NCBI RefSeq assembly: GCF_000407485.1
Contig: NZ_ASWD01000006.1
Location: 1-64,000, forward strand
DNA length: 64,000 nt
DNA from: Enterococcus pallens ATCC BAA-351
GTDB lineage: Bacteria; Bacillota; Bacilli; Lactobacillales; Enterococcaceae
Direction: 5' to 3'
This document shows positions 11,660 through 61,100 of this stretch, in pieces (the stretch's first letter is position 1; each line of letters begins with the position of its first letter). The position numbers and the translations under genes were made by a program. The notes below the pieces were generated by a model, which was not told where the DNA came from, did not search any database, and saw only the letters and a list, made by a program, of their open reading frames with translations.

Positions 11660-11674
11660 TAAGAATTGTTCTAA
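11660..11674. promoter_or_regulatory. second Fur-like operator
   Basis: TAAGAATTGTTCTAA is an imperfect 7-1-7 palindrome matching the box at 11557 in the AGAAYTGTTCT core. It lies about 100 nt further upstream of the flavodoxin operon, in a gene-free AT-rich gap (11296-11831). Confidence 0.45.
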
Positions 11675-11831
11675 TTATTCTTCCATATTTCCACCGGATA
11701 AAGCTTCTGTTATATATCAGATTAAAGATAATTAATTTGTTATATAACAAGATTTTTTTACTCCATTTAGCAACCAAAATAAATCCAACTAGACGAACAA
11801 GTTCTTCCTGTCTGTTTGATACATTTATTCA

Positions 11832-11875
11832 CAAAAAAGATTCTTGGAGCCAAATCACTCCAAGAATCTTTTTTG
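11832..11875 (-). terminator. terminator of the rnf operon
   Basis: Stem GATTCTTGGAG (11839-11849) pairs with CTCCAAGAATC (11858-11868). Flanking A- and T-runs are on both sides. It sits directly 3' of rnfB and separates the Rnf operon from the flavodoxin operon. Confidence 0.9.
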
Positions 11876-11897
11876 TTATGACTCTATTAAAGAAAGA

Positions 11898-12710: not shown

Positions 12711-12722
12711 TTTTAATCCCTC

Positions 12723-13990: not shown

Positions 13991-14005
13991 AGAATCTCCC
14001 CTCCT

Positions 14006-43826: not shown

Positions 43827-44796
43827 TTATAAGTTCGCCGAACCTTACAACGAACCATTTGAGCGTGTTATTCAATACAAACGAGGAATAGGTTATGATT
43901 ATGGCGACTGCTATGTTGGTTTTTATAGACGAATTGCAAAATTTCTCAGTCAGTTTAAACCAACGAAACCAATTATTACACAGGAAATGTATGAGAAATG
44001 GTGCGAACAAACTGACAATGAAGGAAAAGTCTACCATAACATGCGAATCAAAGTACTCTGTGATATTTGTCATATATTAACTGACATGGGTTATCCAAAT
44101 ATTTATATTGATCCATTTGAACCGAGATACCTGAAAAGCTCTTTTGTCCCTTACATTTTTACTCACGAGGAGATTATCCGTCTATTTGATAATCTAAAAA
44201 AGATCGTCAATCAAAAGGATTATTCAAATGATGCGTTTACCTTATTATTCATTTTGTACTACTCTTGTGGTCTGCGTCGCTCCGAAGGACTGCATTTACG
44301 GAAAAAACATTGTAAAGTGGATCAAGGGATTATTGAAATCATTGATTCTAAAAATCATATAAGTCGAATCATTCCATTATCTGATAGTGTGCATGCACAA
44401 TTACAAAGCTATATGACCTCTTACAGTTCCCACTTAGAACCTAACCAATTCATTTTTCATCACCCGAATTCTTATGACGAACATTATTCTATAGGGTCTC
44501 TATATCGTAGATATAGGAAACTACTAGTAGACTCTTACATTCCATATCGACAGGGCGGTAATTTACCTCGAATTCATGACTTACGTCATACGTTTGCCAT
44601 TCATGCGCTTGAAAAGGCAGAAAAAGAAGGAATTGATCTTTATGCCGCACTTCCTTTATTGTCTGTTTATTTAGGACATGAACACCTGACTCAAACTGAA
44701 AACTATTTACGACTAACCGTTCAGCAACATAAAAATGTGAGCACAAAAGTGAAAAAGTATATCGGTAACTTGTTCTATCAAGGAGAGGAAGATTGA
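43813..44796 (+). CDS. RIT tyrosine recombinase B
   Basis: A 327-aa tyrosine recombinase, second of the trio. Catalytic residues: Arg in SCGLRRSEGLHL, the box RIHDLRHTFAIHAL, His in LGHEHLTQT and Tyr in TENYLRL; the beta-hairpin Lys is probably in IDSKNHISRIIPL. Its GGAGG ribosome site is inside the end of recombinase A, so translation is coupled. It ends 1 nt before the third gene's ATG. Confidence 0.88.
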   Translation: MSFYNYKFAEPYNEPFERVIQYKRGIGYDYGDCYVGFYRRIAKFLSQFKPTKPIITQEMYEKWCEQTDNEGKVYHNMRIKVLCDICHILTDMGYPNIYIDPFEPRYLKSSFVPYIFTHEEIIRLFDNLKKIVNQKDYSNDAFTLLFILYYSCGLRRSEGLHLRKKHCKVDQGIIEIIDSKNHISRIIPLSDSVHAQLQSYMTSYSSHLEPNQFIFHHPNSYDEHYSIGSLYRRYRKLLVDSYIPYRQGGNLPRIHDLRHTFAIHALEKAEKEGIDLYAALPLLSVYLGHEHLTQTENYLRLTVQQHKNVSTKVKKYIGNLFYQGEED

Positions 44797-44797
44797 C

Positions 44798-45802
44798 ATG
44801 CATGGCTTTTCATTTTATGTGATGAATTATTTTTCAAGTTATTTAACTAAATTCTTAGGTTGCTCAAAAAAGACTATTGAATCTTATCGAGACACTTTCG
44901 TGCTCTTTTTTGACTATTTAGCAACGCACGAAAGAATTACTTCTGACAACATAAAGCTAGAAGATTTTAATGAAGCAATCGTTGAAAGGTTCCTCAACTA
45001 TTTAGAAGAAAATCGTGGAAATAGTATCAATACAAGAAATCAACGCTTAGGTTGCTTAAAAAGTTTTGCGAATTATTTAAAACGAAAAGAGTTTGCCTTT
45101 TTGAGTCAATGGGAAAGAATAACAGACATTCCTAGCAAAAAAAAGATCACTCAACAAATAGCATATTTAACAATAAAAGAGTTAAAAATACTTTTATCTA
45201 TGCCTGATAATACTACTAAAAAGGGGCGCAGAGAAAAGGCGTTATTATCCTTTATGTATGATACAGGCTGTCGCGTTCAAGAGATAATTGAGACCCAAAT
45301 ATGTAATATTCGCTTTTCTTCGCCACCTTCAGTGGAGGTTCTTGGAAAAGGCGCTAAATATCGTCAAATACCTTTTTCATTAGAAGTCCGTGACTTACTG
45401 AGGGAATACCTTAAAGATCAAAATCTGAATATTTCTTCAGAACAATACGTCTTTCGAAATAATGTAAATAAGAAATTGACCCGAGCAGGCGTCCAGTATA
45501 TATTGGATAAAAATATCCAAAAAGCTCGACAGGAGAATCCACACTTATTTCTCAAAAAAATTTCCAACCATAGTTTGAGGCATAGTAAAGCCATGCATTT
45601 GTTGGAAGCTGGGGTTAATTTGATTTATATCCGAGATTTATTAGGACATGCCTCAGTGAATACGACAGAAATTTATGCAAGGGTAAACCCAGAAATAAAG
45701 CGAAGGATATTGGAAAAAAACTATTCAGAAGTTCATTCTGATACAAAGTATACGGACGAAAAAAAATCAGAATTGGTTGAATGGTTGAAAACTTCACTTT
45801 AG
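44798..45802 (+). CDS. RIT tyrosine recombinase C
   Basis: A 334-aa tyrosine recombinase, third of the trio. N-terminal core-binding domain (KTIESYRDTFVLFFDYL, INTRNQRLGCLKSFANYLKR). Catalytic residues: Arg in DTGCRVQEIIETQ, Lys in VLGKGAKYRQIP, box SNHSLRHSKAMHLLEAG, His in LGHASVNTT and Tyr in TEIYARV. AAGGAGAGG precedes the ATG. Its stop codon is next to the inner right-end motif AGTTATGTAAAG. All three recombinases look intact, so the element may still be active. Confidence 0.88.
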   Translation: MHGFSFYVMNYFSSYLTKFLGCSKKTIESYRDTFVLFFDYLATHERITSDNIKLEDFNEAIVERFLNYLEENRGNSINTRNQRLGCLKSFANYLKRKEFAFLSQWERITDIPSKKKITQQIAYLTIKELKILLSMPDNTTKKGRREKALLSFMYDTGCRVQEIIETQICNIRFSSPPSVEVLGKGAKYRQIPFSLEVRDLLREYLKDQNLNISSEQYVFRNNVNKKLTRAGVQYILDKNIQKARQENPHLFLKKISNHSLRHSKAMHLLEAGVNLIYIRDLLGHASVNTTEIYARVNPEIKRRILEKNYSEVHSDTKYTDEKKSELVEWLKTSL

Positions 45803-45857: not shown

Positions 45858-45886
45858 CTTTACATAACTATTTACTTTTCATAACA
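45858..45886 (-). repeat. RIT right inverted repeat
   Basis: 29 bp, reverse complement of 42463-42491. A further copy of the GTTATGTAAAG motif sits 45 bp inside at 45802-45812. The repeat abuts the Rpn target sequence directly. Confidence 0.85.
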
Positions 45887-46127
45887 TTTCGATGGTTACC
45901 TGGCTGCCATCTTCAGCCACCGCCAATACATCCACTTCGGTCCGCATAATTTTCATCGTGTCATGAGTCTTCTTGTAACTGTCAATGTGGTAAGTTTCTC
46001 GGGGTGTCAGTGTTTTGAATTCCTTGCCCAGCATATCCTTAACAAAAGCCTTTAGGATAATACCAGAATCTTTTGACGTAAGCATTTTGCGGAAAAGTAG
46101 ATCGTTCGTAGGTGTATATTTTTGCAT
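45885..46127 (-). pseudogene. Rpn/PD-(D/E)XK nuclease-transposase family, 5' part of the split gene
   Basis: The N-terminal 81 codons of the interrupted gene. It starts MQKYTPTNDLLFRKMLTSKD, the typical Rpn N-terminus, and runs to RTEVDVLAVAEDGSQVTIEM. The catalytic Asp (VDV) and Glu (IEM) are in this part, while the Gln of E-x-Q is in the 3' part, so the element sits exactly within the active-site motif. I take the ATG at 46127, 8 nt after AAAGGA. An open frame continues a few codons into the element before a stop at 45879. Confidence 0.85.
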
Positions 46128-46443
46128 GTGTTCCATCCTTTCGCTGATCGCGAAAGAGTCACCTTAAGTATAGCACGGTGAGTTTTTGCGATCAAAATCA
46201 TTAGATTTTTTTGAACGGTTCTTAGCGAACTGCTCATGAAAAGATACGCAAAAGAAGGGAAAAAATTTTTTTCTTACTGTCTTTTTCAATAATTGTCTAA
46301 AAAAGATGGAATACTCTGGATTATTCGTTTCATTTCGAAGGATTGTAGTTATTTTTTGTTCAGTATTCATGTTTCTTCTACTTGCTTTATTCAAGATAAA
46401 CATTGATTTGTCAAGGCTCAACGTTCTTTTCCAGTTAAATCTG

Positions 46444-48704: not shown

Positions 48705-50087
48705 TTAGTTTGGAATGTGAATGGCTCGTTGATCTGCAGCTAAGGCAGCTTCCCGGACTACTTCGCTGAGGGTTGGATGTGGATGGATTGTTGTCAGAAT
48801 ATCATCGACGGTTCCGCCTTTTTGCAATACGACTGCTGTTTCGGTAATCAAATCGGTTGCTCGTTCACAGAGTAAATGAACACCCAGCAGTTTTTGAGTT
48901 TGCTCTTCGACTAGAACCTTGGCGAAGCCATAGGTTTTGTCCATTGCCAGAGCTTTTCCGCTAGCTTTTAACGGGAACTTGCCAACGCGGTAGGCAAGGC
49001 CTTTTTGTGCTGCTCGTTCTTCCGTCAAACCAACACCGGCGAATTCTGGATCGGAGTAAACACAGCCTGGAGTAGCTTCACCCCTGAATTGTTCTGATGC
49101 TCCTAGTGCGTTTTCCACGGCACATTCTCCTTGAGCCGAAGCATAATGAGCTAACATGATCTGTCCAGTACAATCCCCAATTGCGTATACATTTGCTACA
49201 TTGGTTTGAAGGTATTCATTCACCAGAATTCGTTGCCCCTCGGTTTGAATACTGGTATTTTCAAGTCCTAAGCCTTCAATATAGCTTCTGCGACCAACTG
49301 CTACTAACAGCTGATCTGCCTGAATCGTTTCTTCGCCTAAAGAAAGCTCGACCTGCTTTTCATCACCGGCAACTGCTTCGACTCGTTGGCCTAATAGGAA
49401 ACGAATGCCTGTCTTCGCTAATTTCTTTCTAAGCAGTCCAGCTAGTTCTTGATCCATCGAAGGCAAAATTTCTGGCTGTTCTTCTACAATGGTCACTTCT
49501 ACACCAAAGCTATTAAAAATAGAAGCAAATTCGATCCCAATTACGCCACCGCCAATGACGGTTAATGATTCGGGCAAGGTTTCTAAAGCTAGAGCTTTGC
49601 TGGAATCCAACCAATTGGTGTAGGTATCTAATCCCTTAATTGGTGGAATAAACGGCTGCGAACCGGTAGCAATCACAATCCGATCTGGCTGCAGCTGAAT
49701 TTTTTCACCATCTGCGGCAGTCACTTCTAAGGTTTGATCATCTACAAAAGCGGCAGTACCTGGCAAGATTTCAATTTGATTGGTTTTCATCAAGCCTTGT
49801 ACACCTTTAACCAGCTGCTTGACTACCCGGTCCTTGCGCTTCATTACGGCTGCCCAATCAAAACCTTGTGCCTCAGCTTGAACACCGAATTTTTTGGCTT
49901 GCTTCACCTGCTCTAAGGCTTCAGCTGATTGCAGTAATGCCTTAGTCGGGATACAGCCTACATTTAGACACGTTCCGCCAAGTTGATTTTTTTCAATCAG
50001 GGTGACTTTGGCTCCTAATTGAGCGGCTCGGATCGCGGCTACATATCCGCCGGGACCTCCGCCGATAATCGCTACAGTTTTACTCAC
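48705..50087 (-). CDS. dihydrolipoyl dehydrogenase (E3)
   Basis: A 460-aa flavoprotein that re-oxidises the dihydrolipoyl group of E2 with NAD+. Motifs: FAD site GGGPGGYVAAIRAAQLGAKV, redox disulfide GGTCLNVGCIPTKALL, NAD site GGGVIGIEFASIFNSFG, second FAD stretch VYAIGDCTGQIMLAHYA, and C-terminal HPHPTLSEVVREA with the catalytic His-Glu. It is the last gene of the aco-type operon, 12 nt after the E2 catalytic gene. The lipoyl domain is on a separate protein here, so this E3 must work with a free lipoyl protein. Confidence 0.95.
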   Translation of the reverse strand: MSKTVAIIGGGPGGYVAAIRAAQLGAKVTLIEKNQLGGTCLNVGCIPTKALLQSAEALEQVKQAKKFGVQAEAQGFDWAAVMKRKDRVVKQLVKGVQGLMKTNQIEILPGTAAFVDDQTLEVTAADGEKIQLQPDRIVIATGSQPFIPPIKGLDTYTNWLDSSKALALETLPESLTVIGGGVIGIEFASIFNSFGVEVTIVEEQPEILPSMDQELAGLLRKKLAKTGIRFLLGQRVEAVAGDEKQVELSLGEETIQADQLLVAVGRRSYIEGLGLENTSIQTEGQRILVNEYLQTNVANVYAIGDCTGQIMLAHYASAQGECAVENALGASEQFRGEATPGCVYSDPEFAGVGLTEERAAQKGLAYRVGKFPLKASGKALAMDKTYGFAKVLVEEQTQKLLGVHLLCERATDLITETAVVLQKGGTVDDILTTIHPHPTLSEVVREAALAADQRAIHIPN

Positions 50088-50099
50088 TGACTGACCTCC

Positions 50100-50777
50100 C
50101 TATTCTTTTGGCAACTGTTCGTTGGGATTTTCTAAGATTTCAGCTAAACGGGTTAAGAAGCGAGCGCCAGTTGCCCCATCAGCTACACGATGATCCAAGG
50201 TTAAAACTGGCTGCAGCACCGAAGCCACGATTAGCTGATCATTTTCATCTACATAAGGTTTTTTAGCTATTTTTCCGATGGCTAAAATGCCTAATTCGGG
50301 CGTATTGACAATCGAAGAAAATGTTTCGATATTGAACATGCCAAGATTACTAATCGTGAAGGTTCCGCCAGTCAGCTCTTCCATTGAGAATTTGCCCGTT
50401 TTGCTTTGTTCCTTGATTTGATTCAAATCATTTTGGATGTCTACCAATGACTTGGTATCCACCTGGTTGATCACGGGAACTAGCAAGCCTCGTTTGGTAT
50501 CGCTGGCAATACCGACGTTGACTTCCGCTACACTTTCCACTAAACCATCCACAAAACGTTGATTGATTTCTGGAAACTCGGTCAGGGCAATTGCAACTGC
50601 TTTAGCAATGATCGCTGTAAAAGATACCTTTGTCGTTAAACCCTTACGATAGGCGATCAGCTGATCACAGCGGACCGTAGTACTCAGCTGAAACTGAGGG
50701 ACATCGGTCCAGCTGCGAATCATTTGCTTAGCCATGGCTTTTTTTAAACCAGTCAGCTTCTTTCCTTCACTACTCAT
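50100..50777 (-). CDS. E2 acyltransferase catalytic domain, separate protein
   Basis: A 225-aa 2-oxoacid dehydrogenase acyltransferase core. It starts MSSEGKKLTGLKKAMAKQMI, has QLSTTVRCDQLIAY and GIASDTKRGLLVPVI, and ends with the active-site segment VLTLDHRVADGATGARFL (DHRxxDG). There is no lipoyl domain and no peripheral subunit-binding domain. The ATG at 50777 overlaps the stop of the lipoyl gene (ATGAGTAG), a natural coupling. The open frame upstream of the ATG is just a shadow of the lipoyl gene. Confidence 0.88.
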   Translation of the reverse strand: MSSEGKKLTGLKKAMAKQMIRSWTDVPQFQLSTTVRCDQLIAYRKGLTTKVSFTAIIAKAVAIALTEFPEINQRFVDGLVESVAEVNVGIASDTKRGLLVPVINQVDTKSLVDIQNDLNQIKEQSKTGKFSMEELTGGTFTISNLGMFNIETFSSIVNTPELGILAIGKIAKKPYVDENDQLIVASVLQPVLTLDHRVADGATGARFLTRLAEILENPNEQLPKE

Positions 50778-51012
50778 CGACTTCAATCCACGCAATCGTT
50801 TCACCGATATCGACCGTTTCGTCTTCTTCCTCGACAATTTCCACTAAGGTGCCATCAACGGCTGATTCCACATCGGTTGTCGCTTTATCGGTTTCGATTT
50901 CTAACAAGACTTCGCCTTTTTTTACCGGATCACCGACTTTTTTGTACCAAGTAAGAATCGTTCCTTCATCCATATCTAAGCCAATTTTTGGCATAATAAC
51001 TTCTTTTTTCAT
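50770..51012 (-). CDS. free-standing lipoyl-domain protein of the aco-type complex
   Basis: An 80-aa single lipoyl domain. It reads KKEVIMPKIGLDMDEGTILT near the start and has the lipoylation site EIETDKATTDVESAVDG with the modified Lys in TDKAT. In ordinary E2 proteins this domain is fused to the catalytic core through a linker and an E1/E3-binding domain; here both are missing. It lies 14 nt after the E1beta gene and overlaps the catalytic gene by 8 nt. Confidence 0.9.
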   Translation of the reverse strand: MKKEVIMPKIGLDMDEGTILTWYKKVGDPVKKGEVLLEIETDKATTDVESAVDGTLVEIVEEEDETVDIGETIAWIEVDE

Positions 51013-51026
51013 CGACAGTCTCTCCT

Positions 51027-51998
51027 CTACTTCAATGTGGTTCTAACAGCGGCCATCACTTGTTCTTCGTCTGGCACATAAGCAACTTCTAAATTACGAG
51101 CAAATGGTACTGGCACATCAGGGGCAGTTACTCGCAAGACGGGTTTCTTTAAATGCTCGAAGGCAAACTCTTGAATCTGAGTAGCTATTTCCCCGCCAAA
51201 GCCAGATTTTTTAACGGCTTCATGGACGATCACTGCATGACCGGTTTTTTCAACTGATTTTAGAATCGGCTGCATATCCAACGGTTCAATACTTTTCACA
51301 TCAATGACTTCGGCACTGATGCCTTCTTCCTTCAGCTTTTTGGCTGCTTTTAATGCAACGTCCACCATGGCTGAATAAGCAATCAAGGTAATGTCGTCGC
51401 CAGCTTCCTTGACTTCACTTTCGTAGCTAACTTCATAAGGTTCCTCTGGTACTTCACATTTACGTTTGTACAGTGCTTTGTGTTCTACAAAAACCACTGG
51501 ATTGTTGTCGCGAATCGCCCGCAGCAGCAGCCCCTTGGCATCATAAGCATTTGATGGCATTACTACCCGAATCCCTGGTACATGAGATAAAATGTTCTCT
51601 AATGATTGGGAATGCTGGGCACCATTTCCTAAACCAGCACCACATTGTGTGCGAATGACTAAAGGAATACTCACTCGTCCGCCGTACATATACCGCATTT
51701 TAGCTGCCTGGTTAAGAATTTGATCGAAACAAACACCGATAAAATCCATGTAAGACAATTCCACAATTGGTCGGCGCCCAATCATCGCTGAGCCGATACC
51801 GGCCCCAACAATTGCTACCTCAGATATGGGTGTATCTCTCACTCGTTCGCCACCAAAATTATCTAATAAATCATAACTGCATCGCAGCTGACCACCGTAA
51901 ACGGCAATATCCTCCCCGATGGTAAAGACATTTTCATCACTGTTAAAGGCAATGTGCAGTGCTTCATTGACCGCCTGACGCATTGAAAGTTTCCGCAT
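51027..51998 (-). CDS. acoB: acetoin dehydrogenase-type E1 component, beta subunit
   Basis: A 323-aa transketolase-like beta subunit. Landmarks: LSMRQAVNEALHIAFNSDEN, GEDIAVYGGQLRCSYDLLDNFG, RVRDTPISEVAIVGAGIGSAMIG, the TPP-facing PIVELSYMDFIGVCFDQI and GFGGEIATQIQEFAFEHL. With E1alpha it decarboxylates or cleaves the substrate and acetylates the lipoyl group. AGGAAGGAG precedes the ATG at 51998; the longer open frame overlaps the E1alpha gene. Confidence 0.88.
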   Translation of the reverse strand: MRKLSMRQAVNEALHIAFNSDENVFTIGEDIAVYGGQLRCSYDLLDNFGGERVRDTPISEVAIVGAGIGSAMIGRRPIVELSYMDFIGVCFDQILNQAAKMRYMYGGRVSIPLVIRTQCGAGLGNGAQHSQSLENILSHVPGIRVVMPSNAYDAKGLLLRAIRDNNPVVFVEHKALYKRKCEVPEEPYEVSYESEVKEAGDDITLIAYSAMVDVALKAAKKLKEEGISAEVIDVKSIEPLDMQPILKSVEKTGHAVIVHEAVKKSGFGGEIATQIQEFAFEHLKKPVLRVTAPDVPVPFARNLEVAYVPDEEQVMAAVRTTLK

Positions 51999-52011
51999 AA
52001 TTATCTCCTTC

Positions 52012-53019
52012 CTATCCTTTGGAAAAGACTTTCCATTCGATTTTTTCAAAGGTTGGATCATATAAGTCATTCATGATATCCTCAACCGCTGGCTCAGGGT
52101 CTTGCTTAGCCTGTTCAGAAGCGGCTAATACTAGTGTTTCTTCCTCTTTTTGAATGGCTTTTAACTCATCCTCGCTTACACCATGTACCTTGATTAAACG
52201 TTGCTCACAGCGTAAAATTGGATCTTTTTCTTTCCATTTTTCTACGTCTTCACGGTTGCGGTAATTTTCGCTGTCGCCAAAATAATGTCCAGACATGCGG
52301 TAGGTATCCATTTCCAACAGCACCGGTCCTTTTCCTGCCAACACTTCTTCTTTTATCTCCGCAAAGGTTTGATACACTTCGACTAAATCATTGCCATCAA
52401 CGGTTAGTCCTTTGATGCCATAAGCCTTCGCCCGGTCAGAAATTCGTTCAATGTTCATGGATTTTTCGGTAGAGGTGGAAATACCAAATTTATTGTTTTC
52501 ACAGATGAAGACCACTGGCAGATTCCAGATGGAGGCCATATTCAATGCTTCATGGAAGGAGCCTTCATTCGAAGCGCCGTCGCCAAAGAAGGAAACAGTC
52601 AGGTGTGGTTCGTGACCAATCTGTTGTCCTAGCCCTGCGCCCATAGCCATGGGAATTCCGCCGCCGACGATTCCGTTAGCCCCCAGATTTCCAGTTGCTA
52701 AATCGGCAATATGCATGGAGCCGCCTTTGCCTTTACAGTAGCCGGTTTCCCGCCCCATCAGCTCGGCGAACATGCGGCGCAGATCTGCACCTTTGGCAAT
52801 ACAATGCCCATGGCCTCGGTGGGTAGAGGTGATATAGTCTTTATTACTTAAATGGGCACACACGCCGACTGCAATGGCTTCTTCTCCGTTGTAGGTGTGG
52901 ACAGCTGCCCGAGTGATATTGGCCTTCGCTAATTCAATCGCTTCATTTTCAAAAGCGCGAATACGCACCATCACCCGATAGAGTTCTAACATCGTTTCTT
53001 TCGAGATTATGCTTTCCAA
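52012..53019 (-). CDS. acoA: acetoin dehydrogenase-type E1 component, alpha subunit
   Basis: A 335-aa TPP-dependent subunit. The TPP motif is GDGASNEGSFHEALNMASIWNLPVVFICENN (landmarks GDGASNEG and CENN). The stretch RGHGHCIAKGADLRRM and GYCKGKGGSMHIADLATGNLGANGIVGGGIP (landmarks GKGGSMHIAD, GANGIVGGG) matches AcoA better than PdhA. It starts with TTG after GGAGG. It is first in a five-gene unit, 410 bp after the RuBisCO-like gene. The acetoin label is by family; the true substrate may be another alpha-hydroxyketone or a 2-oxoacid. Confidence 0.85.
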   Translation of the reverse strand: MESIISKETMLELYRVMVRIRAFENEAIELAKANITRAAVHTYNGEEAIAVGVCAHLSNKDYITSTHRGHGHCIAKGADLRRMFAELMGRETGYCKGKGGSMHIADLATGNLGANGIVGGGIPMAMGAGLGQQIGHEPHLTVSFFGDGASNEGSFHEALNMASIWNLPVVFICENNKFGISTSTEKSMNIERISDRAKAYGIKGLTVDGNDLVEVYQTFAEIKEEVLAGKGPVLLEMDTYRMSGHYFGDSENYRNREDVEKWKEKDPILRCEQRLIKVHGVSEDELKAIQKEEETLVLAASEQAKQDPEPAVEDIMNDLYDPTFEKIEWKVFSKG

Positions 53020-53030
53020 CGAAATTCCTC

Positions 53031-53363
53031 CTAGTTCATTTTAAGGTATTCATTTTTCTTAGGAAAAATGAGTTTTATTGTCACCACGTATATCATCCAA
53101 TTAAACTTTTTAGGTCTTGATTGGGTGGTAACTTTTAATATACGTTTGTGATTTTTGATCCTGCGAAAAGTTGGACTGACACCCTAATTCGTATTGTAGT
53201 ATTCATTTTTCTTGTGGAAAAATGAGTCTGATTGTCATCACGTGTATCATCCAACTAAACTTTTCGCTTCTTGTTTGAGTAGATACTTTGGATACTTCTT
53301 TCTGATTTTTGATGCTGCGAAAAGTTGGACTGACATCCTAGTTCATTTTAAGGTAATCATTTT
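53031..53363. repeat. tandem direct repeat of about 153 bp, two copies plus a partial third
   Basis: Copies start at 53031, 53184 and 53338 with CTAGTTCATTTTAAGGTA or a close variant. Shared parts include ATTCATTTTTCTT with GGAAAAATGAGT (a hairpin), the ATCATCCAA stretch, and CTGCGAAAAGTTGGACTGAC. Copies one and two are diverged by perhaps a fifth; the third has only about 26 bp. The repeats fill the 410-bp gap before the E1alpha gene and no ORF is seen in them. Confidence 0.8.
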
Positions 53364-53429
53364 TAATTCATCCATCAGCTATTTGGAGTGTGGACAAAGG
53401 CTGGCCCCTTGTCCACGTGTTTTATTTTC

Positions 53430-54674
53430 TTAACTCCAGAATTTTAGGGCTTGGTCTAATTCTTCGTGGGTGTTTGCTGCTTCGGTGACCGGTACTTCTG
53501 CCATAACGGCTTCGATTGCCTGCAGCAAAGCTTTTGCTCCTGAGACTGCTCCGGCTGGGTGTCCGTAGATTCCGCCGCCGGCCATTAGGATTGTTTCGTT
53601 GCCTAATAGGTTCATCAAATACTCAATGCTGCCTGGGTGAACCCCGCCAGCGACAGTAGTAAAGGCTGGTTCAATATTTTTCATTGGGGTTGATAAAGCA
53701 CTGTGGGTTTCCACTAATTCATCTGTGGTTGTCCCAAACCGACCGCTATCTGGATAAACCAGCGGCATATCCATCCCCATGATTCGTGGTAATTTGCCAC
53801 AGCTTAACGCTGCTGACATTCCATTGTTTTGCGAACGGTAATAAGCGCCTGCCCCAGCGCAGTGACCAAAGATTGGGATCTTGATGTTTTCTTTTTTCAG
53901 GAAGCGAACCAGGTCTTCGGTTGCTGCCCAGCCTAGAGCGTTGTAGTTCACCATGATGGAGTTGGCTCCGGCATCAATGGCTGCTTTGGCACGATCAACA
54001 ACATTCAAGCCTGTGATATTTACTGCGTACAAGGTCGATTGATCTTTGCCGACTTCCTTCAAATGAGCCATAACTGTTTTTACCCGATCGACCATTGGTG
54101 AATACGCTGGATCACTTAACAATTCATCGTCCTTAATTACATCTGCACCGCCTAAAGCTGCTTTGGCTGCACCGGCTGCACTAGCTTCTGGTGGAACACC
54201 GATACACGGCTTCAAGATTGCGCCTACTAGTGGACGATCTTGAATGCCTAATAAATTGCGGATGCCGCTGACTCCCATTAATGGTCCTGTAAATTCTTCC
54301 AGCATAGCATCAGGAAATTCAATGTCTACTAGGCGAATACCATCCTGAGCTAAAACATTTCCGGCTACGGTACTGATGACCATGGCCATATATGCTGGAA
54401 AATTGGCAGTAGGATAAGCGACTCGAGCCACACAAGAAATTCCGTCTGACATTGGGTATACGCCAACTACCTTCGCGCCATATTTTTCAATTACTTCTGG
54501 TGTTTCCCCTTCCACATGGGTCCAGGTGCCGGCACTTTGATCGGCTGCTACTAATTTGACCCAGTCATAAAGGTCCGGTTCTTTTTCTGAACGCATGTAA
54601 TAGGTTGCTACAACAAAATCGTTGCCTAAGCCTTCTGCCATTTTCAACGTTTCAAATTTCATGTCGTCATTCAT
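53430..54674 (-). CDS. RuBisCO-like protein (form IV)
   Basis: A 414-aa member of the RuBisCO large-subunit superfamily. The metal/carbamate motif GGADVIKDDELL keeps the Lys, Asp and Glu of RuBisCO; ILKPCIG keeps the first Lys but replaces the second with Cys; GHCAGAG keeps the first His but loses the Arg and second His; the loop-6 Lys region is replaced by PDSGRFG; phosphate sites VAGGVHPG and GGGIYGHP are present. So it is not a carboxylase. Known relatives act as diketo-phosphopentane enolases or as decarboxylases of keto-acid phosphates such as in apionate degradation. It follows the LevR-type gene by 28 nt and belongs to the PTS cluster. Confidence 0.85.
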   Translation of the reverse strand: MNDDMKFETLKMAEGLGNDFVVATYYMRSEKEPDLYDWVKLVAADQSAGTWTHVEGETPEVIEKYGAKVVGVYPMSDGISCVARVAYPTANFPAYMAMVISTVAGNVLAQDGIRLVDIEFPDAMLEEFTGPLMGVSGIRNLLGIQDRPLVGAILKPCIGVPPEASAAGAAKAALGGADVIKDDELLSDPAYSPMVDRVKTVMAHLKEVGKDQSTLYAVNITGLNVVDRAKAAIDAGANSIMVNYNALGWAATEDLVRFLKKENIKIPIFGHCAGAGAYYRSQNNGMSAALSCGKLPRIMGMDMPLVYPDSGRFGTTTDELVETHSALSTPMKNIEPAFTTVAGGVHPGSIEYLMNLLGNETILMAGGGIYGHPAGAVSGAKALLQAIEAVMAEVPVTEAANTHEELDQALKFWS

Positions 54675-54702
54675 CTCTTTTCAAAATTTTAGTTAATTCC
54701 TA

Positions 54703-57666
54703 TTAGTCATCGACAGACTGTTTCACCAACATTTGTGACTCTTGATAAAACGGGTCCAAACAGGCTTGAACATCCTCTTTGCTTTGTAAATTGGTTAAGG
54801 CTTCAACTGCTTGCTTGTCGGAGATTACCGAGTAAATCTGACTGAACACTGGACTTGTGTCTTCAGTGAAAGCTAACAATAGAACCACCTTGGCTGCCAG
54901 CTGATTTCCCCAAGCAATAGGCTTGCGAGGAAACAAAACTGCAATTTGCGGCACATTAACCTCTGAAAAATAACCGTGGGGAATTGCGGCTCCGGTTTCC
55001 AAGCATGTGGGCACCATGTCTTCTCTTTCAAACACCGTTTCGCTAAATTTGGGTTTTACATAGCCTTGCGCCACCAGCTGATCGGCTAAAAATTGGATCG
55101 CGGCTGCTTTGGTTTGAATATCCTGATCCATAAAAATTAGCGAGTCACTAATAAGCGGCTTCGTGTCAGACTGCTGGGTTGGTAACAGTACTTGTCGTTT
55201 TTTTAGTCGTACTAAGAAGCGATCTAATGCTCCTTCTTGATGGATTTCCTGCATGAGAAGCAGTGGAATATCTCCGGTTTCTACATCCAGGGAACCTGCC
55301 ATTCCTAAAATATGGTAGTCCTTTTTCACTTCAGCAATTTGGCTGTCCATCGGCTGTTCGCTTAATAAATTTAGAAAAATAAATTCCACAGATGGTGCTA
55401 ACTCAATGAGTTTGTCTTTAAGCTGCTTGGCTAGGTATTGGGCACAGCCCTCACCGGTTAGACAGAAAAAAACAAACGCAAGCCGTTTTGGCTCAGAAGA
55501 GGTTTGCTTCTTCAAGACAACATTTTGCTGGTTCTTGATTAAAGATTCCGCTACCTCATCGATGTTCATGTCTACCAGTTGAGTTTTGCGGATCGCATCC
55601 AGCACCATCAAGGTATCTACCCGCGTCACAGTGCGAACCTCAATCCCCAGCTCTTCCCCAATTTCGCTGCCAAAGGTTTCCGGCGACCCCATATCTACAA
55701 GGATTAATACACCTCGTCCTTGGTTGTTCTTTTTCACTTGCTCCAGCAAACGATTGTAAATGGAGCGAGGACTTTCATCTAAGCTGATACAAAGGGATGT
55801 CAAATGAGACTTGCCCATCAGCTCATTGGCCACCGCCACCATTTCAGCCGCCACCCGACCATGGGTAACGACAATCACTCCAATTGCTTCCCCGTAACGA
55901 ACATTTCCACTGTTGGTAGCTGACAAATACATGGCGATAAAGCCAATTTCCTCATCAGGCAGCTCCATTCCGATATATTGCTTAGAAAGGCCCGCCATTT
56001 TGCAGGCCAGCTGGAATTCTTTAGGATAGTGTTTTTTTACGTTGGATAAGTTCGGGTTTAAAATGCGTTCGCCGCGACGAATTCGTTCAATCGAAGCATT
56101 GAAGTGAGTAGCTAAACAAAAGAGCAAGGATTTATCGATTTCTCCTAATTCTTCCTTAGCAATCTTCAGCATCTCTTCCACCATTCTCAGCAAATCTTCC
56201 TCAACAATTGTTTGGATATTGTCCGTGATTTGATTCACATTTTTGTCGGTTTGAATGTTGCTGATATAACGGGAAATTTTCTTTTCCATCAGCTTCCAAA
56301 TGATGGAGTTAATGTCTTTTTCTGAAAAATCATTGTCCTGCAGCTTCTCGTATTCTGTCTCAATGATGCGGTACAAGCCGTCAGAGAATTCATAGGGATC
56401 TTTGATTTTCAATTCAGGAACCACGGCCTCGTCCGTTGGAGACACAATCAGATCCTTAGCAGTAAAGTAATCAATTTCCTTAGAAGGTGCTTCTGTTTCC
56501 TGTAATTGCTGATGAGAAATCACCAACATCTCACGATCAATCAAAATACGCGAGCTGTTGTCAGCTTTATGCATACAAGCCAGATAGCCCTTGGCACAGG
56601 CTACTTGGATTTTGCTCCGTAGCTCCCCAACATTTCCAGGATAGTGCAGAGTTAACAAACGTCTCATTGCTTCCGAGGTAATTACGACTTCGCGATTTAC
56701 CCGCAATGCTTCTTGGTGAAAGAAGGTCATAATAATGTCGTACTTCTCATCTATTCCCCGCATGGACAAGGCTGGAATAGCAATCACCATCGGAATCCGG
56801 CGGCGGAAGGTATCCAATAAGTTGGTTTCAATGTCTTCGGTGGTTGCTGCGATAATCATTACTTGGGCATTTCGCGTTTTCTGATCCCCCAGCCGGCGGT
56901 AAATGCCTTTATCAATTAACTGAAACAGCATTTCCTGACCATCTGGCGGCATCCGATGAACCTCATCTAGAAACAAAATACCGCCATTGGCATGACTAAT
57001 TAATCCTTCACGATCCTCATCAGCTCCGGTAAAGGCTCCCCGCTGATAGCCGAACAGCTGAGCATTTAGCAATTGAGGATTCTCGGCATAATCCGCACAG
57101 TTCAGCTCAACGAAAGGCATCTCCTTGGCTTCCAATTGCTTACTGAATAAAGCAAATTTGTACATGGCTTCTGCCAAAACACTTTTTCCTACCCCGGTCT
57201 CACCGACAATCAGGGTGTGCAGGCCAATCGGCGGATACATCACTGCTGCCTTGGCCTGCTCTACCTGAATACTTAAGCTTCGCTGCGCGCCAATGATACC
57301 GGCGAAGGCTTCATTTTTGGCTAGCTCTGGTGGTGCATTTTCTTTTTCAGTCCCCACCGAAATATTTTGCTGCTCAATAAAATGGATAATACTGTTTAAC
57401 GTAATCCGATAGCCTGAATCAACCAACCGTTTTGTCAGTTGATTCATACTAATCGTTGGTTCCGCTTCCAAAATGGTAAGTACAGCCTTCAGTAAAACGG
57501 CCTCTCGCCGTTCTCGGGAATTTTCAATACCTGCTTTTTTCCGCATCGTGGTGACACTGCTGCGGGAAAGTTTTAATTGTTCAGCCAATTCTTGATCTGT
57601 ATAGGGATTTTTTGCATCTTCAGCATCAATCATCTGGAGCATGCGTGTATAATCGGATGATTTCAT
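54703..57666 (-). CDS. LevR-type sigma-54 activator with PTS regulation domains
   Basis: A 987-aa regulator. Order: HTH (about 20-60), AAA+ domain (about 125-350) with Walker A GETGVGKS, the sigma-54-contact loop GAFTGAD and Walker B GGILFLDEVHRM, a first PRD (about 435-570), an EIIA-Man-like domain (about 585-700, VVTHGRVAAEMV with an active-site-like His), an EIIB-Gat-like or PRD region (about 735-830, VFFCLTGEGCAQ) and a C-terminal EIIA-Gat-like domain (AAIPHGYF with His). Phosphorylation by the PTS should control it. The ATG follows AGGAGG. It lies between EIIC and the RuBisCO-like gene and most likely drives the sigma-54 promoter at 61012-61027. Confidence 0.92.
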   Translation of the reverse strand: MKSSDYTRMLQMIDAEDAKNPYTDQELAEQLKLSRSSVTTMRKKAGIENSRERREAVLLKAVLTILEAEPTISMNQLTKRLVDSGYRITLNSIIHFIEQQNISVGTEKENAPPELAKNEAFAGIIGAQRSLSIQVEQAKAAVMYPPIGLHTLIVGETGVGKSVLAEAMYKFALFSKQLEAKEMPFVELNCADYAENPQLLNAQLFGYQRGAFTGADEDREGLISHANGGILFLDEVHRMPPDGQEMLFQLIDKGIYRRLGDQKTRNAQVMIIAATTEDIETNLLDTFRRRIPMVIAIPALSMRGIDEKYDIIMTFFHQEALRVNREVVITSEAMRRLLTLHYPGNVGELRSKIQVACAKGYLACMHKADNSSRILIDREMLVISHQQLQETEAPSKEIDYFTAKDLIVSPTDEAVVPELKIKDPYEFSDGLYRIIETEYEKLQDNDFSEKDINSIIWKLMEKKISRYISNIQTDKNVNQITDNIQTIVEEDLLRMVEEMLKIAKEELGEIDKSLLFCLATHFNASIERIRRGERILNPNLSNVKKHYPKEFQLACKMAGLSKQYIGMELPDEEIGFIAMYLSATNSGNVRYGEAIGVIVVTHGRVAAEMVAVANELMGKSHLTSLCISLDESPRSIYNRLLEQVKKNNQGRGVLILVDMGSPETFGSEIGEELGIEVRTVTRVDTLMVLDAIRKTQLVDMNIDEVAESLIKNQQNVVLKKQTSSEPKRLAFVFFCLTGEGCAQYLAKQLKDKLIELAPSVEFIFLNLLSEQPMDSQIAEVKKDYHILGMAGSLDVETGDIPLLLMQEIHQEGALDRFLVRLKKRQVLLPTQQSDTKPLISDSLIFMDQDIQTKAAAIQFLADQLVAQGYVKPKFSETVFEREDMVPTCLETGAAIPHGYFSEVNVPQIAVLFPRKPIAWGNQLAAKVVLLLAFTEDTSPVFSQIYSVISDKQAVEALTNLQSKEDVQACLDPFYQESQMLVKQSVDD

Positions 57667-57785
57667 AGTGTTTTACCTCCTCAACAGATTTTAGTGTTGA
57701 TCATAAATGACATATCTATTCACTTATTATCCTACTATAAAAACTGGCTTAACTGAACATGTGTATTCTTGCGTCTAGACGTTCG

Positions 57786-59057
57786 CTAATAACTGACAAA
57801 GCCTAGGAGATCAAGAATTTTATACATTATGAAGGTAATCGGGTTACCTCCTTCTGACAAACTACTAATCAAATTAGTGCCCTCTGGAAATTCAAAGCCA
57901 ACAATTTCAGCAATGTGGGTATGCGCGCCGGCCATCGCAGTGGCACACCAGAAATAAATGGCAAAGACGACAAATACCGACATACAAATGTGCAAAATAT
58001 TTTCCTTAGCAAAGGCGGTAATCCCAATAATGAACCATGGAACGGCTACTAATGAAGCAGTCGCCAGCATTCTATTTCCAGGAATAATTGACATAAAGGT
58101 CACGATTGGTGTCATAATCAAGATCGCAGACATCGTTGCTGGATTCCCCATGATCGTTGACGCATCAATTCCAATCCAAACTTCGCGGCCTTTCATGTAT
58201 TTCGCTGTAAAGATTTTGGCTTGGTCAGAAATTGAGATTAAGCCTTCCATCATGATCTGAATCATCCGTGGCAGCAAGATCATCACCGCTGCCATGTTGA
58301 AACCAAGTAACAAGATTTGACGAATATCATAGCCGGCAATAAAACCAATCAGCATCCCTAAAATAGCTCCGATAACAATCGGTTCTCCAAAGATCCCCAT
58401 TTTTTCCTGCATCGTTTCTGGATCGGCCTTAACATTTTTGATTCCAGGAATTTTTTGAATCAATTTTACCACTGGAATCCCAATCATGGCTGGCGCAATA
58501 ATAGCACCTGTTGGCCAAGTACAGCCAGGGATCCCGTAGAATTCTTGATAAGTTGGTGCCATTTTGTCTGCCCATTTCAAGGAAACGGCCATGTAAATAC
58601 AAGCGGCTAAAACGGTGAAAATCATATTGCCGGTTGCCCCATAAATCAAGGCAGCACTTGCGGCAAAGGACCAGTAATTCCAAAAGTCTACCATCAGTGT
58701 CTTTGTAAAGTTTAAGAAAATCAGTGCAATATTCGTCGCAATTAGTGCAATAATAACCATTCCTGATCCTGGCTGTCCCCAGGCCATCCCCATCAGGCCC
58801 CAGCCAACATCCACAATATCCAAGTTCCAGTTCATCCGTTCAACCATTGACATGGTTGCCGGCGACATTTGCGCAATCAGCATATCTACGGTTAAGTTCA
58901 GTCCAATGAAACCAACTGTTGCAGTTAATGCCGAGCGGACAGCATCTCCAACCTTTAGCCCTAGAACCAGTCCAATAATCAGCAAGGCAACACATAAAAT
59001 CCCATTACTACCTAATCCCGTAAACCACTGGAACCCTTTGTTTACTGCTTCAAACAT
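57786..59057 (-). CDS. PTS EIIC, galactitol (Gat) family
   Basis: A 423-aa polytopic membrane permease of the Gat family, about ten helices. Landmarks: LGLKVGDAVRSALTATVGFIGLN, YQEFYGIPGCTWPTGAIIAPAMI, GREVWIGIDASTIMGNPATMS and ATAMAGAHTHIAEIVGFEFPEGTNLI. Gat-family permeases import and phosphorylate polyols, galactitol being the type case; other members import other alditols or sugar acids. It is 30 nt after EIIB. Substrate unknown. Confidence 0.9.
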   Translation of the reverse strand: MFEAVNKGFQWFTGLGSNGILCVALLIIGLVLGLKVGDAVRSALTATVGFIGLNLTVDMLIAQMSPATMSMVERMNWNLDIVDVGWGLMGMAWGQPGSGMVIIALIATNIALIFLNFTKTLMVDFWNYWSFAASAALIYGATGNMIFTVLAACIYMAVSLKWADKMAPTYQEFYGIPGCTWPTGAIIAPAMIGIPVVKLIQKIPGIKNVKADPETMQEKMGIFGEPIVIGAILGMLIGFIAGYDIRQILLLGFNMAAVMILLPRMIQIMMEGLISISDQAKIFTAKYMKGREVWIGIDASTIMGNPATMSAILIMTPIVTFMSIIPGNRMLATASLVAVPWFIIGITAFAKENILHICMSVFVVFAIYFWCATAMAGAHTHIAEIVGFEFPEGTNLISSLSEGGNPITFIMYKILDLLGFVSY

Positions 59058-59087
59058 GGATTTACCCCCATTCTTTTTTTTATCCTT

Positions 59088-59381
59088 TTACCCCTTTAGA
59101 ATCTGACGCATCTCTTCCATCGCTTCTTCTTTACCGATTCCTGAAATAAACGGTACTCCATTAACCTTAGGTGCATTTAGTTCGGTTGTTACTGGTGTCA
59201 TTAACAAATACATGTCCGGCTGCATCGTGCTCAATACCGTTTTCAATTCTGTTGCCCGGCGCTTGTTCAATTTGACTTTAATGCCTAGCTCTTTGGCTAC
59301 TTTTTTAACCTCATTTTCCCCAGCAGTGGAGGTAGCAAACCCCGCTCCACAAACAACAACCACGATTTTTTCTTCTGCCAT
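59088..59381 (-). CDS. PTS EIIB, galactitol (Gat) family
   Basis: A 97-aa cytosolic phosphocarrier. The phosphorylated Cys is in KIVVVVCGAGFATSTAGENEV, and the C-terminal half has LLMTPVTTELNAPKVNGVPFISGIG. It passes phosphate from EIIA to the sugar bound by EIIC. It lies between the EIIA and EIIC genes. Confidence 0.92.
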   Translation of the reverse strand: MAEEKIVVVVCGAGFATSTAGENEVKKVAKELGIKVKLNKRRATELKTVLSTMQPDMYLLMTPVTTELNAPKVNGVPFISGIGKEEAMEEMRQILKG

Positions 59382-59403
59382 TTTTATTCTCCCCTTTCTT
59401 TAA

Positions 59404-59898
59404 TTACCGTTCATTTTCTCTTTTAGAGAATTCATAATGCATAATGCTCTCTACTTCTTCTGTTGATTTTGCCGCTAACAATTGTGTGACTACTTGTGTA
59501 TCCTGAATAATTTCCATGATGTCCTTAATCATGTACAAGTGCTCATCGTTCAAGCTGGCTGCCAGCATAAAGACTACTTTGACATCAAGGTATAAATTGG
59601 GATCTTCCATACTGGCAAACTTTGCACTATTTTTCAGTACGGCAACACCAATCCCTGCTTTGAATACCTGCGAACGCTCACTGTGAGGGATCGCTATCGG
59701 GACTGGTGTAGGAACTCCCGTAGGAAACTCCAGCTCTCTTTCTAAAACAGACTTTCCGTAACATTCTTCTACCATCCCATGAGCGGCCATTTCACCGGCT
59801 AGCTGATAAATCAGTTGATCACGGTCGGTTTCCTCCGTGATAATGGCATGGATTTCATTCTTGCTTAACATCTGGTCCTCAATGAATGATTTATCCAA
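59404..59898 (-). CDS. PTS EIIA, fructose/galactitol type
   Basis: A 164-aa cytosolic phosphocarrier. The active His is in VPIAIPHSERSQVFKAGIGV; LERELEFPTGVPTP precedes it and VVFMLAASLNDEHLYMIKDI follows. I use the TTG at 59898, 8 nt from GGAGG; the longer frame includes that ribosome site. It is the second gene of the operon after the dehydrogenase. Confidence 0.9.
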   Translation of the reverse strand: MDKSFIEDQMLSKNEIHAIITEETDRDQLIYQLAGEMAAHGMVEECYGKSVLERELEFPTGVPTPVPIAIPHSERSQVFKAGIGVAVLKNSAKFASMEDPNLYLDVKVVFMLAASLNDEHLYMIKDIMEIIQDTQVVTQLLAAKSTEEVESIMHYEFSKRENER

Positions 59899-59927
59899 AT
59901 GAGTCACCTCCTTCACTTTTTACATTC

Positions 59928-60968
59928 TCATGGAATGATGACACCTTTAATCATTTTGCCAGCTCGCATATCCGCAAAGCCCTGTGCCAAGTCCTTTAGC
60001 TCATATTTATGAGTAATGAACTTACGGGCATCCAGCTGACGGTTTAACACTAAATTCAAGGCCTTGCGATTCACTTCTGGTGAATACGCGGAAGCACCAT
60101 AAACCATAATTTCCTTATAATGAATAGCATTGGTATCTAACAGCTTTGCGCTGGATGGATGAATCCCGCCGAATAAGATGACCTTGCCGCGTTTTCGGGC
60201 TAAATCCACTGCATCCGCTTGGGCTTGACCAGCTGGACAGGCACTAATCACCACATCTGCGCCGCGACCGTTGCTTTTCTCTAAGACCATTTCCATTAAG
60301 CGCGGATCAGAACTGCTCATGTTCACGACATTGTCAAAGCCTTGCTTACGGGCAAGATTAGCTTTCTCTTCATTCATTTCCACGATTAGGACTTCTTTTA
60401 CACCGCGAATTTTAGCAATTTCACTGTGCAAGCAGCCGATGGTTCCTGCACCAATTACTACCACCAAATCATCCATGACAATGTTGGTATTGATTTGGGC
60501 ACACAACACGGAAGATGCTGTTTCAGCGATTACCGTGTCCACTGGATCAATGTCATCAGGAATTGTATTGAAGCAGCCATGATCAATCGTTTCTTTCGGA
60601 AAGGCAATGTATTCAGCAAAGCCGCCATTGATGCCCTCTGCCGTGCCAATCATCCGAATATTGTCACAAAGATTTTGAATCCCATTTTGACAATACCAGC
60701 ATTCACCACAAACGATTACCGGAGCAATTGATAAGTTGGTCCCTACCGGAAATCTTTCGTAATTGCTCTCCACTACCTCAGCGGCAATCTCATGACCGGA
60801 AATCGCTGGTAGAATCGAATTTTTCGATCCTCCGCCATATGTGCGCAAGTCTGAGCCGCAAATACCACAGGCAATCACCTTTACTTTTATACCATCTGCA
60901 GGACAAACGGGCTCTTCTACCTCTTCGTAGCGTACATCATCTGGTCCATACAAAACTTCTGCTTTCAT
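59928..60968 (-). CDS. zinc-dependent polyol/alcohol dehydrogenase (medium-chain)
   Basis: A 346-aa MDR dehydrogenase of the sorbitol/galactitol-1-phosphate type. Catalytic zinc residues are in CGICGSDLRTYGGGS and ISGHEIAAEVVE; structural zinc Cys in CGECWYCQNGIQNLC; the NAD site is VVIGAGTIGCLHSEIAKIRG. Expected role: oxidation of the phosphorylated PTS product to a ketone in the cytosol. It is the first gene after the sigma-54 promoter. Which hydroxyl it oxidises is not visible. Confidence 0.88.
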   Translation of the reverse strand: MKAEVLYGPDDVRYEEVEEPVCPADGIKVKVIACGICGSDLRTYGGGSKNSILPAISGHEIAAEVVESNYERFPVGTNLSIAPVIVCGECWYCQNGIQNLCDNIRMIGTAEGINGGFAEYIAFPKETIDHGCFNTIPDDIDPVDTVIAETASSVLCAQINTNIVMDDLVVVIGAGTIGCLHSEIAKIRGVKEVLIVEMNEEKANLARKQGFDNVVNMSSSDPRLMEMVLEKSNGRGADVVISACPAGQAQADAVDLARKRGKVILFGGIHPSSAKLLDTNAIHYKEIMVYGASAYSPEVNRKALNLVLNRQLDARKFITHKYELKDLAQGFADMRAGKMIKGVIIP

Positions 60969-61011
60969 TGGATCACATCCTCATCTCTTTATTTGCTTTC
61001 ACTTTTTATAA

Positions 61012-61027
61012 AGCAAGTCCTGTGCCA
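61012..61027 (-). promoter_or_regulatory. sigma-54 (-24/-12) promoter of the PTS/RuBisCO-like operon
   Basis: On the minus strand TGGCACAGGACTTGCT matches the consensus TGGCACRnnnnTTGCW perfectly, with correct GG-GC spacing. It lies about 45 nt upstream of the dehydrogenase ATG. The LevR-type activator in the same cluster has the loop needed to contact sigma-54. Sigma-54 itself is not in the window. Confidence 0.9.
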
Positions 61028-61100
61028 ACTTCTATTCAACTTGGTCGAAGCCTACTAAACTTAAGAAAGCGGTATCATATTATTTGACAGCCTGAGCAAA

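Follow-up and report, generated by a model that had tools for sequence, protein, structure and literature searches.

The window analysed here, a stretch of 64,000 nucleotides from Enterococcus pallens ATCC BAA-351, holds a gene for a RuBisCO-like protein (RLP) within a cluster of uptake and acyl-transfer genes. Eleven intact genes lie in one run on the minus strand (48705-60968), according to open reading frame (ORF) calls, Pfam and NCBIfam scans and a motif check. From 5' to 3', they encode a Zn-dehydrogenase (ADH), the EIIA, EIIB and EIIC components of a phosphotransferase system (PTS), a LevR-type activator, the RLP, E1-alpha, E1-beta, a lipoyl protein, an E2 catalytic domain and E3. The cluster is a real, conserved catabolic unit, and its genes almost certainly form one functional unit. 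The same contiguous order on one strand had been given in a preliminary description of this DNA, and all the members were recovered; the catalytic motifs are intact in every cluster gene checked. Its single "lipoyl-E2" gene was right as to the domains, both of which are present, but these are divided between two genes (50770-51012 and 50100-50777) overlapping by 8 bp. Its extent of 48705 to 61030 was likewise adjusted: the last gene ends at 60968, with a promoter site beyond it. The features are as follows.

61012-61027, minus strand: sigma-54-type promoter site, TGGCAC-N5-TTGCT, 43 nt upstream of the ADH start codon
59928-60968, minus strand: Zn-dependent medium-chain dehydrogenase (PF08240, PF00107; zinc-ligand-type motifs)
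59404-59916, minus strand: PTS EIIA, EIIA_2 family (PF00359; PH motif)
59088-59381, minus strand: PTS EIIB, Gat-like (PF02302; CGxG motif; NF007643 44 bits, cut-off 95)
57786-59057, minus strand: PTS EIIC, galactitol family (PF03611 176 bits; TIGR00827 355 bits, cut-off 542)
54703-57666, minus strand: LevR/DagR-like sigma-54 activator (AAA+, PRD, EIIA-man and EIIA_2 domains; GAFTGA motif)
53430-54674, minus strand: RLP of the E1-linked clade (PF00016, PF02788; tree; active site)
53020-53429, no strand: intergenic stretch with a genome-dispersed repeat (genome match search, query 53040-53420)
52012-53019, minus strand: E1 alpha (PF00676; ThDP motif; TIGR03182 355.6 bits, cut-off 393.9)
51027-51998, minus strand: E1 beta (PF02779, PF02780; NF006667 349.7 bits, cut-off 321)
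50770-51012, minus strand: stand-alone lipoyl-domain protein, 80 amino acids (PF00364; DKA motif)
50100-50777, minus strand: E2 acyltransferase catalytic domain alone, 225 amino acids (PF00198 only)
48705-50087, minus strand: E3 dihydrolipoyl dehydrogenase (TIGR01350 547 bits, cut-off 409)

The best NCBIfam match of the window ADH, TIGR00692, reached 160 bits against a cut-off of 458. The E1-beta ORF extends to 52070, its likely start being 51998, and relatives suggest a start of the RLP at 54662 rather than 54674. Intergenic spacing ranges from -8 to 119 bp, with the sole exception of the 410 bp between the RLP and E1-alpha genes. This gap is filled by a dispersed repeat with 27 matching pieces genome-wide, itself included. 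One piece matches beside the RLP of a second cluster in the same genome (C1:1174016), whose RLP is 92% identical to that of the window. In the relative L010, the corresponding gap measures only 42 bp.

Conservation of the RLP with the E1 genes

Within the genus, the RLP was found in 6 of 20 genomes, at 8 loci in total; two genomes, the window's own and one matching Enterococcus florum, hold two clusters each. Six of the 8 loci are of type A, like the window. The other two (L012, L013) are of type B, with a different Gat-like PTS, a Mga/PRD regulator and a gene for a D-2-hydroxyacid-type dehydrogenase (HADH) between the E1-beta and lipoyl genes. Of 398 sampled genomes of the phylum, 50 give an RLP match of some kind; besides the window genome, only G463 scores as a member of the window clade (700 bits; next 340). 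A scan of named genomes, which covered the best 79 of at least 338 confirmed loci (at least 594 candidates), added L072 (Eubacteriales), L073 (Christensenella hongkongensis), L075 (a metagenome-assembled genome, MAG, of Anaerostipes), L078 (Clostridia), L079 (a Verrucomicrobiota MAG) and L080 (an Anaerolineaceae MAG). The added clade RLPs show 64-72% identity, and the next best among the matches listed 42%. Once duplicates had been set aside (L074 equals L050; L070, L071, L076 and L077 repeat other counted loci), at least 15 distinct clade loci were counted: 8 in the window genus, 5 in other Bacillota, 1 in a Verrucomicrobiota MAG and 1 in a Chloroflexota MAG. The two phyla outside Bacillota are represented by MAGs and could reflect binning errors.

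E1-alpha, E1-beta and a free lipoyl gene lie near the RLP in all 15 loci found, the E2 catalytic gene in 13 and E3 in 11. The order is rearranged in L050 and L075, yet PTS, ADH, RLP and the E1 set run together. Over a non-redundant set of 84 RLP loci, the RLP has E1 genes within 6.5 kb on its own strand in 14 of 14 clade loci, against 2 of the 70 outside the clade; these two are the sister locus L084 and L065, the latter with only an E1-beta-like ORF of 106 amino acids. Neighbours were labelled by BLAST against a few labelled proteins, and the labels PtsI, HPr, SorC, PHP, NagD, ABC, RpiB and TpiA were given by eye. The earlier view that the gene set belongs together is upheld by this conservation, also where the order differs. 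The PTS and aco parts, whose separation in all relatives had been considered, proved to be linked in relatives.

A chance neighbourhood, in which an ordinary acetoin dehydrogenase operon happens to adjoin a PTS operon whose RLP has a role of its own, is already disfavoured and highly improbable. The 410-bp gap between the two halves in the window would agree with it, as would the existence of Aco-like sets that are linked to a PTS but lack an RLP, one in the same genome (L183) and one on a Priestia plasmid (L186). RLP and E1 nevertheless stay together in 15 of 15 loci despite different importers and gene orders, and both copies in the window genome keep the RLP with E1. RLP and E1-alpha are also close in L010, L072, L073, L078, L079 and L080. 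Purifying selection on both the RLP and E1-beta is strong; for the RLP, dN/dS is 0.007 in comparison with L009 and 0.020 in comparison with the second copy, with dS there at 2.4, near saturation.

Uptake modules and regulation

Three uptake versions occur among the 15 loci: the Gat-type PTS with the Zn-dehydrogenase (8), the other Gat-like PTS with HADH (2), and an FGGY kinase with HADH (5: L072, L073, L078, L079 and L080). HADH of the FGGY loci is 65-73% identical to the type B dehydrogenase, and the kinase is XylB-like, below cut-off in the two scanned (L072, L078). Genes for a ribose-type ABC transporter (a name given by eye) form a full set in L073 and L078, and part of a set can be seen in L072; none was seen in L080, and the L079 stretch begins 0.7 kb before its RLP. 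The link between RLP and PTS drawn in the preliminary description does not hold as a fixed one, since 5 of the 15 loci carry an FGGY kinase instead. Its related proposal, that the RLP acts on a PTS product, survives in part: the substrate probably is a phosphorylated uptake product, but, given the FGGY loci, not a PTS product as such.

Within 6.5 kb and on the same strand, each of the 14 clade loci has either the Zn-ADH (8) or HADH (6), never both. The pairing extends to the 17 RLP loci that have an EIIC within this range, its type (A or B) being assigned from the better of two BLAST matches. Type A occurs with ADH in 12 of 13 cases (L136 has none); of the 4 type B cases, 3 have HADH and 1 has GlpA. 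The pattern is the same in loci with a class II aldolase in place of E1 (L052, L055, L056, L059). As the dehydrogenase type tracks the importer type, the dehydrogenase probably belongs to the uptake side and acts before the RLP. Conversely, the E1-linked core is constant while importers vary; therefore, the RLP and the thiamine/lipoyl enzymes look like the core, which is probably fed by a phosphorylated, oxidised uptake product. The E1 set and the class II aldolase look like alternative exits, judging from gene content. For the L052 aldolase, the best models are of the AraD and FucA types, none shown over its cut-off; an identity as methylthioribulose dehydratase (MtnB) was rejected (81.7 bits, cut-off 137).

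In the wider family, the 70 RLP loci outside the clade, a GlpA-type dehydrogenase occurs at 8 and an FGGY kinase at 9, and these neighbours suggest alditol phosphates. RLP genes of Sporomusa and Desulfosporosinus (L128, L130, L133, L137, L139) were seen among glpA-, glpC- and glpF-like genes plus an FGGY kinase. L054 (9326-19177) combines an RLP with TpiA- and RpiB-like genes, FGGY kinases and a GlpA-like gene, and L065 (4831-15332) with TpiA-, RpiB-, transaldolase- and transketolase-like genes; both sets, named by eye, are reminiscent of tetrulose-phosphate isomerase pathways.

The promoter site is the only exact match to TGGCAC-N5-TTGCW in the 64 kb (0.08 expected) and is oriented into the operon; an rpoN match is present in the genome. 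The activator unites the traits of a LevR-type sigma-54 PTS activator: AAA+ with GAFTGA, PRD and EIIA domains, and a -24/-12 promoter. All 7 type A loci with LevR have such a site ahead of their first gene; it is exact in the window, L009, L010 and L011 and has one mismatch in L014, L015 and L050. One-mismatch sites are weak by themselves because they also turn up elsewhere in several loci. Upstream of the gene run, no site was seen in L075, which has no LevR in its available stretch, or in the two type B loci. The conserved sites back the sigma-54/LevR control proposed earlier.

Some further observations were made around these genes. The LevR gene of L010 (9999-12921; genome matching Enterococcus sp. 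669A) is in two frames in that assembly. A 16-pair terminator-like stem (61198-61162) follows the gene upstream of the cluster; terminator-like matches in the region number 13, against 12.9 in shuffles, i.e., no excess overall. Beyond the cluster, two consecutive tyrosine-recombinase-like integrase genes lie in a low-GC stretch (0.35) at 43813-45802, near a short Rpn/transposase-like ORF at 45879-46136 (names by eye).

The RLP, the thiamine/lipoyl complex and a proposed pathway

The window RLP belongs to the RuBisCO superfamily, with PF00016 (151.5 bits) and PF02788 (53.4 bits) over their cut-offs and KDDE, the carbamate motif KxDE, at residue 181. It falls below every NCBIfam cut-off, including those for RuBisCO forms I-III (TIGR03326, 249.7 against 497 bits; NF003252, 241 against 438; NF010002, 121.8 against 489), MtnW (NF007095, 278.8 against 409; TIGR03332, 233.5 against 513.6) and OiaX (179.6 against 700). 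In a tree of 113 of 136 RLP rows (23 near-duplicates dropped), built by a quick method with SH-aLRT support only, the window RLP lies in a clade of 14 rows with support 100 and a long stem. This clade stands apart from MtnW, OiaX, form I and the other four-carbon-kinase-linked RLPs included, and a 5-row clade with both MtnW references (SH-aLRT 100) excludes it. The labelled references in the tree were MtnW, OiaX and form I only; forms II and III were judged by model cut-off alone. The placement check called for in the preliminary description thus put the RLP outside the reference clades compared. The sister of the clade (support 94) is the Aerophobota RLP L084, at whose locus E1-alpha and E1-beta likewise occur, together with a dehydrogenase of the same family and FGGY kinases. 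A Vibrio nigripulchritudo plasmid (L166, 1019-5638) carries, in a single run, a split transketolase, a very divergent RLP and an FGGY kinase along with ABC genes. With that transketolase as its thiamine enzyme and a very long branch for its RLP, it was dismissed as a close parallel.

The active site was compared in 20 rows, 5 of them duplicates, with form I numbering and form I references only. T65, W66, N123, K175, K201, D203, E204, H294, G381, G403 and G404 are kept in 20 of 20 rows, and the metal and carbamate residues K201, D203 and E204 are thus all retained. The changes from form I are K177 to C, R295 to C (19 rows) or S (1), H327 to L, K334 to R and S379 to A. T65, W66, G381, G403 and G404 are taken here to be the C1-phosphate site of RuBisCO. 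Because these and the metal residues are kept while R295, H327 and S379 are changed, we read the site as fitting enolisation of a substrate with a single phosphate beside the ketone. The RLP substrate is very probably a mono-phosphate formed from the uptake product.

R295 and H327 are missing from both the MtnW rows and the window clade, and the MtnW model gives the top NCBIfam score for the RLP. MtnW-like elimination may thus be considered, in which the RLP would yield a 2,3-diketone or 1-deoxy compound and E1 would split its methyl-ketol form to acetyl-CoA. Acetoin-type E1 enzymes act on methyl ketols, in keeping with this route. It is nonetheless improbable: the MtnW score is under cut-off, the clade is separate, and no MtnB, MtnX or MtnD is among the window cluster genes. 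Furthermore, Asn is kept at position 123, presumably that of the MtnW catalytic base, where 3 MtnW-clade rows have Lys.

In the preferred reading, the genes make up a catabolic operon under sigma-54/LevR control, which serves a polyol or polyol-like compound imported by the PTS; as a full model this is tentative, its chances being somewhat below even. Gat-type PTS import their substrate as a phosphate. The polyol-like compound would be taken up in this form, and the Zn-dehydrogenase would oxidise the polyol phosphate to a keto phosphate, the ketone probably adjoining the phosphorylated carbon. The RLP would then, via a metal-bound enediolate at the carbamylated lysine, shift the carbonyl or invert the neighbouring carbon. 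That it is an isomerase or epimerase, rather than a decarboxylase or enolase, has slightly less than even odds. E1/lipoyl/E2/E3 would cleave the resulting acyloin, with NADH, an acyl-CoA and an aldehyde phosphate as products; the latter two might be a C2 acyl-CoA and glyceraldehyde 3-phosphate. In L050, a gene for glyceraldehyde-3-phosphate dehydrogenase (GAPDH; 440.8 bits, cut-off 367.2) overlaps a ptsI-like gene in the same gene run, which hints at glyceraldehyde 3-phosphate as the aldehyde product.

E1-alpha, E1-beta, lipoyl protein, E2 and E3 are all present with catalytic motifs, as in an acetoin-dehydrogenase-type gene set. In support of the preliminary description, the E1 is distinct from the pyruvate dehydrogenase of the genome (E1-beta 41% identity), and the E1 of RLP loci form their own clade (support 100/99 for E1-alpha, 80/99 for E1-beta). 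The E1 motifs examined do not discriminate acyloin from 2-oxo-acid use; on balance, acyloin cleavage is the likelier role of the complex than 2-oxo-acid oxidation. The E2 is split, and no peripheral-subunit-binding domain was detected by Pfam scan in the lipoyl or the catalytic protein, so E1 and E3 may bind E2 in a mode other than the textbook one. The E2 protein begins directly at the catalytic domain in 11 of 13 E2 genes, those aligned; some listed E2 ORFs are longer at the N-terminus because of start codons further upstream. That the split arose by a frameshift was rejected, as the two-gene arrangement recurs in other phyla. A single-chain E2, with lipoyl and catalytic domains together, is absent from the window cluster and present in L183 of the same genome, where it matches the E2 model over residues 5-403.

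Related sets were noted elsewhere. L183 (C4:434000-449000; genes at 4973-14875) has Gat-like EIIA and EIIC, SDR, a SorC-like regulator, E1a, E1b, fused E2 and E3, with no RLP in that stretch; L186 is, by annotation, a glucitol-PTS version of such a PTS-linked Aco-like set. On a Phaeobacter plasmid (L187, 4034-10999), an E1a/E1b set is accompanied by a short E2 and by a lipoyl-containing protein annotated on its own, with no RLP among the features shown. The split E2 is therefore possibly not unique to the window clade.

Several points weigh against the polyol pathway. The substrate, the RLP reaction, the product and the acyl-CoA are all deduced, and the putative phosphate site is read from an alignment plus the residue roles of RuBisCO. 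The E1 trees, with one annotated Aco reference for both subunits (L188) and modest support between clades, do not firmly place the E1 clade beside it, and L183 and L186 are PTS-linked E1/E2/E3 sets that lack the RLP. No E2 was seen in L078 and L079, and no E3 in L073, L078, L079 and L080; L084 has no lipoyl or E2 gene in 21 kb, with one E2 match elsewhere in its genome. The mutual exclusion of ADH and HADH depends on range: in L012, another ADH-family gene (31% identical) lies on the strand of the RLP at a distance of 6.9 kb, and weakly similar ones (21-24%) are found on the opposite strand in L073, L078 and L080. GAPDH was seen in 1 of 15 loci only. In addition, 32 of the 70 outside-clade RLPs adjoin PEP-hydrolase-like or UPF0261 genes, which the model leaves unexplained; RLPs beside PEP-hydrolase-like TIM barrels, ComB-like and UPF0261 (Tm-1-like) genes were seen, for instance, in L057, L058, L060-L064, L067 and L068, and this neighbourhood is conserved.

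Lastly, D-2-hydroxyacid-type dehydrogenases normally act on acids, so a sugar acid would fit better than a polyol where HADH is present, i.e., in 7 of 15 loci (PF02826 for L013). In a sugar-acid route, an imported aldonate would be oxidised to a keto acid phosphate by Zn-ADH (at C3) or HADH (at C2), decarboxylated by the RLP as by OiaX, and the ketose phosphate cleaved by the E1 complex. The carbamate triad and K175 are retained, and a decarboxylating RLP is described in a review (PMC6302742). This route is unlikely all the same, with the RLP outside the OiaX clade and far below its model cut-off, R295 and H327 changed, and no four-carbon acid sugar kinase among the neighbour genes seen; the GlpA-type dehydrogenases of some wider relatives also suit alditol phosphates.

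A broader and more doubtful version of the polyol pathway is that of a new pathway in three phyla, in which an isofunctional RLP clade would make an acyloin from an uptake-derived keto phosphate and a minimal thiamine/lipoyl complex would split it oxidatively. That complex would consist of the free lipoyl protein and an E2 core lacking the subunit-binding domain, and would release triose phosphate along with a C2 acyl-CoA; in chemical terms, this would reverse a synthesis of the DXP-synthase or transketolase type. Candidate starting compounds would be pentitols, deoxypentitols and 2-C-methylerythritol.

Comparison with known systems

To our knowledge, few RLP functions are known. The present clade comes with its likely feeding enzymes, a likely product-consuming complex and three exchangeable uptake versions, a context that constrains the RLP reaction further than an isolated orphan gene could. 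If the proposal is true, it would connect the RuBisCO fold with the thiamine-dependent formation of acyl-CoA in fermenting bacteria, and the split E2 would probe the minimal size of a working acyl-transfer complex. In a full-text search of the open-access literature, judged by title and abstract start and covering the primary RLP literature in part, no description of this cluster was seen among the papers listed; the cluster and its breakdown pathway are probably undescribed.

Among the closest likenesses is the acetoin cleaving system acoABC(L), which comes with butanediol dehydrogenase and a sigma-54 regulator; it shares the E1a/E1b/E2/E3 set and, by annotation, has a dehydrogenase adjoining it in Paracoccus (L188). 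As proposed for the window operon, aco of B. thuringiensis is under sigma-54 control (PMC4428206). In contrast, the window has an RLP, a PTS and a PTS-sensing LevR activator, its lipoyl and E2 catalytic domains are on separate proteins, and its E1 is not firmly grouped with the Aco reference.

Among RLPs, MtnW acts on a mono-phosphate, as that of the window probably does, and shares with it the changed R295 and H327, but the window RLP misses the MtnW cut-off, forms a separate clade, has N123 rather than Lys and has no methionine-salvage neighbours. The R. rubrum RLP is reportedly a 5-methylthioribulose-1-phosphate isomerase; the carbonyl shift on a ketose 1-phosphate attributed to it resembles the chemistry proposed here, and a title on this isomerisation stands among the references of PMC6302742. 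OiaX and OiaT are RLPs of D-apiose/apionate catabolism that use a phosphorylated keto compound (PMC6302742). The window RLP is also found in a carbohydrate catabolic setting, but its clade is apart from OiaX and its partner genes are others.

Finally, the drdKIA system for 5-deoxyribose disposal splits a ketose 1-phosphate by a FucA-like class II aldolase; its three genes, as described, are a kinase, an isomerase and an aldolase, with no RLP (PMC6079011). It recalls the PTS-linked RLP loci L052, L055, L056 and L059, in which a class II aldolase takes the place of the E1 set.

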